A stretch of DNA of 64,000 nt from Cupriavidus sp. WGlv3 (GTDB taxonomy: Bacteria > Pseudomonadota > Gammaproteobacteria > Burkholderiales > Burkholderiaceae), in contig NZ_JALHRX010000010.1 in NCBI RefSeq assembly GCF_023952475.1, forward strand, positions 62,001 through 126,000. The letters run 5' to 3'. Below, one piece after another: positions 38,040 through 41,579 of the stretch. The notes below the pieces were generated by a model. It was not told the DNA's origin, ran no database searches, and was given only the letters and a program-made list of their open reading frames with translations. Within the stretch, counting starts at the first letter, position 1; each line of letters begins with the position of its first letter. The position numbers and the translations under genes were made by a program.

Positions 38040-39146
38040 ATGTCTTCCGTCTCCAGCCCCCGCACCACTCCGACCGCCGCGCCAGTCGCCGCGCCGGCCC
38101 TGCCGCCGCCCTGGTCCCAGCGCTTGCTGACGCTGCTGCCGCTGGGCGGCATTGCGTGGCTGGCGATTGCGCTGGCCGAGCATCCGGCGGTATCGCGCTA
38201 CGGGCTCAGCGCGCTGACGCTGGCCATGTGCGCCGGCATGGTTGCGGCCAATACGCTGCCGCGCCATTGGCTGGCGCCGCTGGCTCCCGGCATGCAGGTG
38301 GCGCGGCACTACCTGCTGCGGCTGGGCGTGGCGCTGTACGGGCTGCGCCTGACCTTCGCCTCGATCGTCGCGCTGGGCCTGCCGGGCATCGCCGTGCCGC
38401 TGACCATGCTGGTCGCCACGCTGCTGTTCGGCACCTGGGTCGGCACGGCCTTCTTCGGCCTGAGCCGCCGCGAGGCGATCCTGGTCAGTTCCGGCAGCGC
38501 CATCTGCGGCGCGGCCGCGGCCATCGCGGTGTCGTCGGTGGTGCGCACCGACGACAAGCAGACTGCCGTGGCGGTGGCGACGGTGGTGCTGTTCGGTACC
38601 GTCGGCATGCTGCTCTATCCCTACCTGTACGAACTGGCCACCGGCCACTGGCACTGGGCCGTGACCGAGCGCATGTTCGGCATCTTCACCGGGGCGACGC
38701 TGCACGAGGTGGCGCAGGTGATCGCCGCCGGCAAGATGATCAGCGAGCCGACCGCCGACGCCGCCGTGGTGGCCAAGATGGTGCGCGTGCTGGCCCTGGG
38801 CCCGCTGCTGCTGGTGATGGCGCTGTGGCCGCAGGGTGGGTCGCAAGCGGCCCAGTCCGGCGCCGGGGCCGGACGCCTGCGCGGCATCATGAAGTCGGTG
38901 CCGTGGTTCGCGGTGGGCTTTGTCGCGGTGATGGCGGTCAACTCGGCCGGGGCCGTGCCCGCTGCCTGGAAGGCGCCGCTGATCGCGCTGGACAACTGGC
39001 TGCTGGCCTGCGCGATGCTGGCGATCGGCCTGCACACCCGCATCGGCGACCTGGTGCGCGCCGGCCGCAAGCCGCTGGCACTGGCCGGGGTGCTGTTTGT
39101 GTTCCTGATGGGGGTGGGGGCGCTGATGTGCTACGCGATGGCGTGA
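38040..39146 (+). CDS. YeiH family membrane protein (putative sulfate/sulfite exporter)
   Basis: 368 residues with about ten membrane helices, of the family annotated as conserved hypothetical 698 / YeiH. Typical segments are YLLRLGVALYGLRLTFASI, SSGSAICGAAAAIA and FTGATLHEVAQVIAAGKM. The substrate has not been settled for the family; sulfonate or sulfite export is suspected. It starts at the ATG at 38040, divergent from the LysR gene and likely under its control, and is followed by an intrinsic terminator at 39168. Confidence 0.82.
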   Translation: MSSVSSPRTTPTAAPVAAPALPPPWSQRLLTLLPLGGIAWLAIALAEHPAVSRYGLSALTLAMCAGMVAANTLPRHWLAPLAPGMQVARHYLLRLGVALYGLRLTFASIVALGLPGIAVPLTMLVATLLFGTWVGTAFFGLSRREAILVSSGSAICGAAAAIAVSSVVRTDDKQTAVAVATVVLFGTVGMLLYPYLYELATGHWHWAVTERMFGIFTGATLHEVAQVIAAGKMISEPTADAAVVAKMVRVLALGPLLLVMALWPQGGSQAAQSGAGAGRLRGIMKSVPWFAVGFVAVMAVNSAGAVPAAWKAPLIALDNWLLACAMLAIGLHTRIGDLVRAGRKPLALAGVLFVFLMGVGALMCYAMA

Positions 39147-39278: not shown

Positions 39279-39586
39279 TGGTGCCCGAGGCCGGAATCGA
39301 ACCGGCACGCCTTGCGGCGAGGGATTTTCTTCCCACTTCGGCTTTCGCCGCCAGCGCGGACGCTGTTCGTGGTCTGGAGCACGCCTTCACCATAGCCTTG
39401 CGGCCGTAGGTGCCCGCCGTCTGCTCTCTACACCTTCCCGACCATGCGATCGGGCTTGGCTCGGCGTTGGCTCGGATGCCATGCATCCAGGGCGTTCGCC
39501 GACTTTGACGGGCGTCACTTCGGGCGTTTCCCCCCGAAGGCTCAAATTTTCAAGTCCCTTGTGTCTACCGATTTCACCACTCGGGC
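39279..39586 (-). tRNA. tRNA-Leu(UAA) interrupted by a group I intron
   Basis: Read on -, the 5' exon (39586-39552, 35 nt) contains acceptor GCCCGAG, a D-arm and the 5' half of the anticodon arm ending AGGGACTT. The 3' exon (39328-39279, 50 nt) begins AAAATCCCT, has a variable arm CGCCGCAAGGCG, T-arm GCCGGTTCGATTCCGGC, acceptor CTCGGGC and encoded CCA. Joined, they form a perfect cloverleaf with loop CTTAAAA and anticodon TAA. The intervening 223 nt are inserted after U34. Standard ORF-based annotation leaves this region empty, and a scanner without group I support may miss the gene. Confidence 0.92.
39329..39551 (-). other. Group I intron (223 nt) in tRNA-Leu(UAA)
   Basis: On the - strand the intron starts GAAAATTTGAGCC and ends in G (terminal omega-G). 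The 5' exon end ACTT can pair with the internal guide GAG through a U-G wobble at the splice site. Core-like segments AGAGAGCAGACGGCGGGCAC (39410-39429) and GCCGAGCCAAGCCC (39453-39466) resemble the P7/P3 and P6 strands of cyanobacterial tRNA-Leu introns, which use the same U34/A35 insertion point. There is no endonuclease ORF. Subgroup assignment would need folding. Confidence 0.87.
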
Positions 39587-39658
39587 GCGAGCGCTGTGTC
39601 AGTTTCCGGTTTGGCGCCAGACGGGCTCCGGTTGCTGCCAGCGCGCGGCAAGCCCGAT

Positions 39659-39687
39659 ATTGTGGTGGCTCCGCATCCCGGATGCAA
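39659..39687 (-). promoter_or_regulatory. Probable tRNA-Leu promoter
   Basis: On the - strand TTGCAT (39687-39682), 17-base spacer, CACAAT (39664-39659). This leaves a leader of about 65 bases before the 5' exon. Confidence 0.6.
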
Positions 39688-41371: not shown

Positions 41372-41410
41372 GGCATAAAAGAGGGCATGGCTGGGTAGGG
41401 CCGGCCTGGC

Positions 41411-41483
41411 GTGGGGTCTGACTCCCGCCCGCGGCACGCATACCTGGCTACTGCCCAACACCTCGTTCCGAGGTGGTCCCCAC
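41411..41483 (-). ncRNA. Structured region in the hemP 3' tail, candidate small RNA
   Basis: The ends GTGGGG and CCCCAC can close a 73-nt domain that contains a perfect 7-bp hairpin (CACCTCG-TTC-CGAGGTG, 41459-41475) and a weaker inner stem. It lies between the hemP stop and the terminator at 41342, on a transcript predicted to be Fur-controlled. It is not a known RNA to me. Not a protein-coding stretch. Confidence 0.35.
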
Positions 41484-41579
41484 AAAAGTCTTTGCTGCCA
41501 CGTTCGTGGCGTCCGCGCCTGGCGCGGGTTTCGAATGGCTTCCCTGGCTGTCTTCCTGCGGAATCGCCGTGGAGCTGCA

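Follow-up and report, generated by a model that had tools for sequence, protein, structure and literature searches.

The window, a stretch of 64,000 nucleotides from Cupriavidus sp. WGlv3, carries a tRNA-Leu(UAA) gene (39586-39279, minus strand) that is interrupted by a group I intron after U34, the first base of the anticodon. We consider it probable, at roughly 70%, that this gene is a rescue tRNA left behind by an ICE-like element that splits the tRNA gene of its host, and that the intron hides the attachment core of that element; on this reading, the window copy would descend from the element, the intron would have a protective role and the transcript would be spliced. The argument draws on sequence comparison, covering the intron core, the search for further copies of the gene, the synteny of the locus, and the split resident genes and layout of elements in relatives.

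The split tRNA-Leu(UAA) gene and its core

The gene consists of three parts, all on the minus strand, of which the exons were delimited by reading, in-silico splicing and ARAGORN, and the intron by sequence reading, alignment and ARAGORN.

39552-39586, minus strand: 5' exon of tRNA-Leu(UAA), 35 nt, ending ..GGGACUU, with U34 as its last base
39329-39551, minus strand: group I intron of 223 nt that begins and ends with G
39279-39328, minus strand: 3' exon of tRNA-Leu(UAA), 50 nt with CCA, AAAAUCCCUC...CACCA

With introns permitted, ARAGORN reported a tRNA-Leu(taa) whose limits are precisely 39279-39586 and whose intron measures 223 nt, a result that, together with in-silico splicing, confirmed a sequence-only reading that had placed a split tRNA-Leu(UAA) with an intron of this length at the same coordinates on the minus strand; the insertion after U34 and the terminal G described by that reading are likewise borne out by the window sequence. 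The region is absent from the default ARAGORN output, which gives four tRNAs in the window. When exons were joined in silico, 91 of 91 intron genes (the window gene and 90 relatives, with introns of at most 300 nt) were typed as tRNA-Leu(taa). The fold of the 308-nt gene exceeded 100 of 100 shuffled sequences in stability (z -2.47), a fold alone being unable to reveal a pseudoknot. The split tRNA and the group I intron in the window are real, and their kind is already known.

The core was traced to the following segments, with helices numbered in the usual group I scheme (P1-P9).

39541-39543, minus strand: GAG, the internal guide, which forms P1 with the exon bases CUU (39554-39552), with U.G at the splice site
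39507-39513, minus strand: 5' strand of P3, GCCCGUC, partner 39418-39412
39412-39418, minus strand: 3' strand of P3, GGCGGGC
39422-39426, minus strand: 5' strand of P7, GAGCA, partner 39381-39377
39377-39381, minus strand: 3' strand of P7, UGCUC

An alignment of 68 of the 69 non-redundant introns with their exon edges (L144 was omitted) showed the named pseudoknotted core of 34 pairs to be paired in 96.9% of cells, with double changes in 22 pairs, among them all seven pairs of P3 and three of the five pairs of P7. Covariation in the core amounted to 0.405, compared with at most 0.080 for slid partners and a shuffle mean of 0.150; the measure counting further pair types, which was matched by 21 of 500 shuffles, is less clear. 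In 47 of the 68 introns the outermost pair of P3 does not form, and P7 occurs as GACTA/TAGTC (31 introns), GAGCA/TGCTC (19, the type of the window), GACTT/AAGTC (14) and other variants (4). The P7/P3-like core of the sequence-only reading is thus borne out by covariation, and the U-G wobble that it had described between exon and guide at the 5' splice site is present in the window. P1 (CUU-GAG with U.G at the splice site) was invariant in 68 of 68 introns, an outcome built into the search pattern; in five related genes detected independently of that pattern, the splice-site pair is U.G in four cases (L003, L004, L005 and L320) and C-G in one (L322). The intron-final G was observed in the window and in L003-L005, and was imposed by the script in the relatives found by pattern.

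Rfam returned neither a tRNA nor Intron_gpI (RF00028) at 39279-39586, even at E<=10, in a listing that does not display two lower-scoring overlaps of the tmRNA/tRNA clan. Since RF00028 also misses or under-scores homologues (45 bits for L006 and 29 bits for L019 against a cut-off of 50, with L060, L114 and L188 unlisted), its negative result is weak counter-evidence; it reflects a limit of the model, recognition by which is no defining feature of a group I intron. The covariance-model check proposed with the sequence-only reading was negative with Rfam. The weight is carried by the comparative test on 68 introns, which supports a P3/P7 core and, with it, the assignment of the window intron to group I. 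Elsewhere in the window, Rfam gave a match to the Burkholderia sRNA BTH_s39 at 41374-41488 (minus strand; 56.3 bits, below the gathering score of 77).

The genome of the window (6.75 Mb in 162 contigs, rated 100% complete) contains one full copy of the intron gene by BLAST. A second intact tRNA-Leu(UAA), which the sequence-only reading had named as the mark of a pseudogene, was not found in this genome by BLAST, by intact-gene patterns or among the 56 tRNA-model matches, where typing covered the 13 that were long or scored lowest (Leu CAG three times, UAG, CAA and GAG; Ser four times; Tyr, Met and Cys). If UUA codons are read, the window gene would therefore have to splice, and we take it to be a working tRNA-Leu(UAA), the only UUA-reading tRNA found in the genome. 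As default tRNA search and Rfam both miss intron genes, genomes of this type seem to be devoid of tRNA-Leu(UAA). The same double miss could be read as the sign of a pseudogene or unspliced fossil, an explanation that we find scarcely credible for a gene with complete exons and a conserved core that occurs in nine related species, in a genome of full rated completeness with no other tRNA-Leu(UAA) found.

Replacement of the resident gene in Cupriavidus

Two features of the window anchor the comparison of this locus across the genus.

39647-39667, minus strand: motif CACCACAATATCGGGCTTGCC, found directly 5' of the intron-less resident tRNA-Leu(UAA) in other Cupriavidus, retained here although that gene is gone
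38040-39146, plus strand: conserved membrane-protein gene, presumably YeiH-like, flanking the tRNA-Leu(UAA) locus in the compared Cupriavidus loci and used as synteny anchor

Among 60 Cupriavidus genomes, the intron gene was found in 12 and the intact-type pattern in 48, with none of that type in the window genome. The 48 include two genomes with broken genes (G020 and G021) and G049, whose foreign-looking intact gene (L323) lies on a 3.6-kb contig of an assembly rated 78% complete and is probably a contamination; G012 (54% complete), G029 and G048 gave a match to neither the intron nor the intact-type pattern. Of the 48, 30 genomes had their intact-type sequences inspected (L287-L316), and L321 and L323 were inspected as well. 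The anticodon stem of the resident gene differs from that in our first intact-gene pattern, which missed this gene.

In the loci compared, the intron-less Cupriavidus tRNA-Leu(UAA) is quite a different gene at the same locus, with the same motif upstream and the same membrane-protein gene downstream, so that the whole gene was replaced rather than merely invaded by an intron. The origins put forward by the sequence-only reading, a transfer of cyanobacterial type or old inheritance, do not accommodate this replacement of a different resident gene, exons included, and overlook that in relatives the intron gene travels on integrative elements that split tRNA genes. In a tree of the flanking gene (41 rows; L298 was dropped, its flank gene being off the contig, and for L289 and L295 the right-hand loci of their genomes were used instead), the nine intron-bearing species with clean flanks form one group with support of 93/89, nested among intron-less species, whereas the two ICE-bearing genomes are placed separately, as are the two genomes with intron-less rescue genes. 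The shared group could be taken to indicate that the intron homed into the resident tRNA gene, or that it has descended vertically from the ancestor of Cupriavidus, yet we hold both to be very improbable: the exons of intron-bearing and intron-less genes are quite different, which already contradicts simple homing, the 223-nt intron leaves no room for a homing endonuclease, and the group is nested among intron-less species. Vertical descent holds only within the nine-species group.

Around the gene, approximately 3.3 kb of the window align unbroken with eight other species of the clade, and the window shows no recognisable trace of an element or att site. An integrase of the G021 type was also not found in the window genome when 12 genomes were searched; matches of 91-100% identity were restricted to G020 and G021, and matches of 66-68% occurred in G014 and G021. 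The lack of a remnant in the window and the unbroken alignment would fit ordinary homologous replacement, for example by transformation with DNA of a related bacterium, instead of the loss of an element. We regard such an event as unlikely, considering that the upstream motif of the resident gene was kept while the gene itself is gone, that elements in G020 and G021 bring related genes (90% and 92% identity) to the same locus, and that a decayed half of the resident gene persists in G006. There, the decayed 5' half (a 20-nt match followed by weaker likeness) lies 5' of the intron gene, and before the flank is reached there is a further stretch of 22 kb with other genes; G006 thus represents an intermediate stage, with the decayed resident half still beside the intron gene.

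Further tRNA-Leu genes were encountered in the genus. The megaplasmid of G030 (G030:C4), a genome that a 100% match to NC_015727.1 identifies as C. necator N-1, carries a truncated fragment of the intron gene (L320 15466-15650) and a second intact, intron-less tRNA-Leu(UAA) (L321 7013), and a second intron-containing tRNA-Leu in G021 (L322 9661-9338, contig C41) has a 5' exon ending in CTC, which would give a spliced anticodon CAA and a C-G pair at the splice site.

Elements that split tRNA-Leu(UAA) at the anticodon loop

In G021, the resident gene is divided in its anticodon loop into a 5' part (C33:18615-18654) and a 3' part (C33:80440-80495, followed by the usual flank) with 61.8 kb between them, and the intron gene begins a short way in from the left end of the element, at C33:18812. 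G020 shows the same layout with the two ends on separate contigs. The junctions in both genomes share a 9-nt core, CTTAAAATC, that comprises the anticodon loop and two further bases, and it is inside this core, between CTT and AAAATC, that the intron is positioned. An integrase (Pfam Phage_integrase) lies at the right end of both elements, and in G020 TrbI and further transfer genes adjoin the intron gene; these transfer genes had a match in 252 plasmid records, 223 of them typed as conjugative. With integrase, TrbI and TrbE (Pfam) and further trb/traG-like genes, the elements are ICE-like in gene content. The G021 element also contains adjacent genes for a UvrD-helicase and an OLD-like TOPRIM ATPase (L317 4323-8533, Pfam), a pair which, as we take it, resembles the Gabija defence pair.

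We propose that a tyrosine integrase would recombine attP with the anticodon-loop core of tRNA-Leu(UAA), the 9 nt CTTAAAATC, and that integration would halve the resident gene without restoring it. The host would then die for want of tRNA-Leu(UAA), a need suggested by the lack of another copy as checked in the window genome only, and would survive because the element brings its own tRNA-Leu(UAA), which, being on the same strand, about 160-195 bp in from the left end and downstream of the host tRNA promoter, could replace the broken gene. As the intron falls exactly within the core, the rescue gene could not itself become an attachment site, while splicing of its transcript would still yield a normal tRNA. 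In the lineage of the window, the element would later have been lost and the broken resident gene would have decayed, with the intron gene staying behind.

The same site is used by elements of another make. An 18-kb element in G029 splits the resident gene at an 11-nt core, GACTTAAAATC, and one end of such an element is seen in G048; the two carry a foreign, intron-less tRNA-Leu(UAA) (L335 18727-18812 and L336 1692-1776) with the loop region GACTTAAAATT. In these elements the rescue falls to a tRNA without an intron, so an intron is not required for it. This would favour a passenger intron, carried by a gene that already had it when the element took it up, in which case any divergent tRNA-Leu(UAA) would rescue the host and the intron would bring no benefit; consistent with such a course, intron genes often occur with no element in sight (57 of 66 among the matches listed), and U34 is, as we take it, also the intron site of cyanobacterial and plastid tRNA-Leu genes, unconnected with any element. 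A passenger is quite possible, though on balance we doubt it: the intron interrupts precisely the 9-nt core, the G029 and G048 rescue tRNAs differ from the 11-nt core in its last base (GACTTAAAATT versus GACTTAAAATC), as if a change there were needed, and a second tRNA type, described below, likewise pairs a split resident with an intron-bearing copy.

A pattern scan of named genomes yielded at least 119 stretches, 66 with a complete intron gene and 53 without; among the matches listed, 41 of the latter are intact tRNA-Leu(UAA) genes and 12 did not resolve, and the hosts named belong to the alpha-, beta- and gammaproteobacteria. A strict pattern detected the intron gene in at least 16 of 398 sampled Pseudomonadota genomes and in 12 of 212 genera (the reversed control gave 0), a count that includes the window genome and one congener. 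Both results, the former being 66 of 119 loci among the matches listed, fail to support the statement in the sequence-only reading that tRNA-Leu cases are few. Longer tRNA-Leu(UAA) introns were met as well, 12 of them of about 600-800 nt and thus of a size for an ORF, such as that of a homing endonuclease (L059, L064, L071, L103, L113, L177, L210, L217, L239, L264, L270 and L274), and two of about 400 nt (L082 and L142). In Devosia sp. 66-14 (L149), an intact intron-less tRNA-Leu(UAA) lies about 1.5 kb 5' of the intron-bearing one.

Among the matches listed, a broken resident 5' half was found within 300 nt upstream of 7 of the 66 intron loci and of none of the 53 intron-less loci (62 and 49 of which, respectively, had 300 nt upstream available), and within 3 kb upstream of 9 of 66 versus 1 of 53. 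The remaining 57 intron genes have no split resident within that distance, suggesting that many of those listed are now ordinary resident genes. All seven upstream halves are on the same strand as the intron gene, which begins 159-194 nt beyond the end of the core. By eye and alignment, the left end is clearly homologous to that in Cupriavidus in four of the seven (a Lysobacterales MAG, Hydrogenophaga, Variovorax WDL1 and Lysobacter concretionis), partly so in Pseudomonas jinjuensis and a Rhodanobacter MAG, and not in the alphaproteobacterium L086, and the resident halves at homologous left ends vary by host.

The integrase of G021 has counterparts of 100% identity in Variovorax, 93% in Lysobacter, 93% in P. 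jinjuensis and 91% in Hydrogenophaga; the same integrase was not found in the other three of the seven genomes with split residents, where the best matches have 24-36% identity. In these four genera and the two Cupriavidus genomes, the integrase is adjoined by CTTAAAATC and then a tRNA 3' half ending in CCA, and among the eight loci scanned two with more distant integrases (65% and 36%) lack a tRNA-Leu 3' half. When the 5' and 3' halves of the same host were put together, the acceptor stem paired at 7 of 7 positions in all six, and the anticodon stem at 5 of 5 in five and at 4 of 5 in Variovorax; full pairing of both stems was thus obtained in five of the six own combinations, but in none of the 28 that crossed hosts. 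The two ends share a contig in G021, in Lysobacter (~41 kb apart) and in P. jinjuensis (~66 kb), and are on separate contigs in Hydrogenophaga, Variovorax and G020. The elements of G020, G021 and the four other genera are therefore integrated at a short core within a tRNA gene that is not restored, and a tyrosine integrase stands beside the attachment site in these elements.

In an unrooted tree of 35 hand-picked intron genes, with bootstrap values not settled, the window group (which includes L013) lies near element-borne copies from several families; the tree is weakly supported inside and cannot order the events. A Lautropia gene without visible element also groups near the window clade in this tree, so that an element could equally have taken the gene from a chromosome.

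The second tRNA type comes from one alphaproteobacterial MAG (G106; L358 and L380), in which an element of ~12 kb splits a tRNA-Lys(CUU)-like gene and contains an intron-bearing copy of it. On contig C12, the 5' half, ending in CTCTTAA, is at ~179.2 kb and the 3' half, starting with CTCTTAATC, at ~191.6 kb; the integrase is 36% identical, and ARAGORN types the gene as tRNA-Arg. Returning to the reading of the window intron as the mask of an attachment core, we tentatively extend it, with a chance just short of even, to small anticodon-loop group I introns at least in Pseudomonadota: these may act as erasers of attachment sites in rescue tRNAs, invisible to the integrase in DNA and removed in RNA, and spread of elements followed by their loss could account for the patchy occurrence of ORF-less introns in tRNA-Leu and tRNA-Lys-like genes in the absence of homing.

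Known systems, phages and plasmids

To our knowledge, it is an open question how ORF-less group I introns in essential tRNA genes spread without a homing endonuclease. The relatives of the window offer a concrete route, in which the intron rides in a rescue tRNA borne by an element that disrupts the host's own tRNA gene, and the position of the intron in the attachment core suggests a function. A search of the open-access literature found no link between group I tRNA introns and rescue genes of ICEs; what is new is the setting, namely the rescue tRNA of tRNA-splitting elements with an intron within the attachment core.

The introns of cyanobacterial and plastid tRNA-Leu(UAA) genes are similar to that of the window in their small size, the U.G of P1, P3/P7, the final G and, as we understand it, the insertion site, whereas the window intron resides in Pseudomonadota, has exons foreign to the genus and is tied to mobile elements that split tRNA genes. 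The group I intron of Azoarcus (subclass IC3) shares the small size, the U.G of P1, P3/P7 and the final G, and lies in tRNA-Ile and not in tRNA-Leu. A tRNA-Leu(UAA) intron in a gammaproteobacterium was reportedly found by Vepritskiy and co-workers in about 2002. The cyanobacterial and plastid family is described in passages of a review, which place bacterial tRNA introns mostly in cyanobacteria and in few alpha- and betaproteobacteria (PMC4033280), and the text of a 2014 review of bacterial group I introns contains neither 'tRNA-Leu' nor 'proteobacteri' (PMC3984707). Group I introns that tRNA finders miss have been noted in tRNA-Ile2 of Acidovorax and Burkholderia (tRNAscan-SE 2.0, PMC8450103); they concern another tRNA, and the pertinent section of that paper states no link to mobile elements.

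In its working, the closest system considered is the tRNA-dependent lysogeny of actinobacteriophages (Guerrero-Bustamante and Hatfull 2024, PMC10865867), in which, as in the elements described here, a tyrosine integrase uses a short core (~10 bp) in a tRNA that is not rebuilt. The present elements differ in being ICE-like elements of Pseudomonadota rather than phages and in carrying a rescue tRNA with a group I intron in the core; in the excerpted text of that study the phage rescue tRNAs are not mentioned as bearing introns, and the need for rescue, which we deduce from sequence, was demonstrated there (PMC10865867). Our observations would widen tRNA-dependent lysogeny beyond actinobacteriophages, bringing in ICE-like elements of Pseudomonadota. 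They would also provide bacterial evidence for an idea argued for the tRNA introns of archaea, which are cut by a protein endonuclease. This idea, the closest to ours in the material consulted, is that a tRNA intron, maybe itself derived from a mobile element, protects against integration (Randau and Soll 2008, as cited in Sugahara et al. 2012, PMC3293823), and it shares with the window the notion of an intron in an attachment site that blocks integration. In the present case, by contrast, the intron is a bacterial group I intron, and resident halves are seen at both ends of the element.

Phages as spreaders of the intron gene were considered and set aside. Among the viral pattern loci listed, 21 of 120 carry the intron gene, and an integrase lies near an intron-bearing tRNA-Leu in viral L187, L188 and L219 and in bacterial L139, with 24-28% identity to the integrase of G029; judging from sequence, the three viral loci resemble prophages inserted where an intron-bearing tRNA-Leu has its 3' end, which the intron would thus not shield.

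The intron gene matched 1288 plasmid records, 13 of them over at least 80% of the query (Bradyrhizobium and Mycetohabitans), and nearly all other matches viewed end at the 3' exon. They say nothing about the origin of the window gene. That these matches are truncated genes was rejected, as L003 (3995-4294, NZ_CP015086.1) and L004 (1111-1410, CP033563.1) are complete intron-containing tRNA-Leu genes with a different 3' exon, with the anticodon UAA as read and tRNA-Stop as the ARAGORN type. Most of the 1288 records show similar matches, and plasmid hosts of such genes include Escherichia, Klebsiella, Salmonella and Acinetobacter (two records were read, the others seen as match rows), and in L004 the intron-containing tRNA-Leu lies ~1.2 kb from a predicted aac(3)-IId gene.
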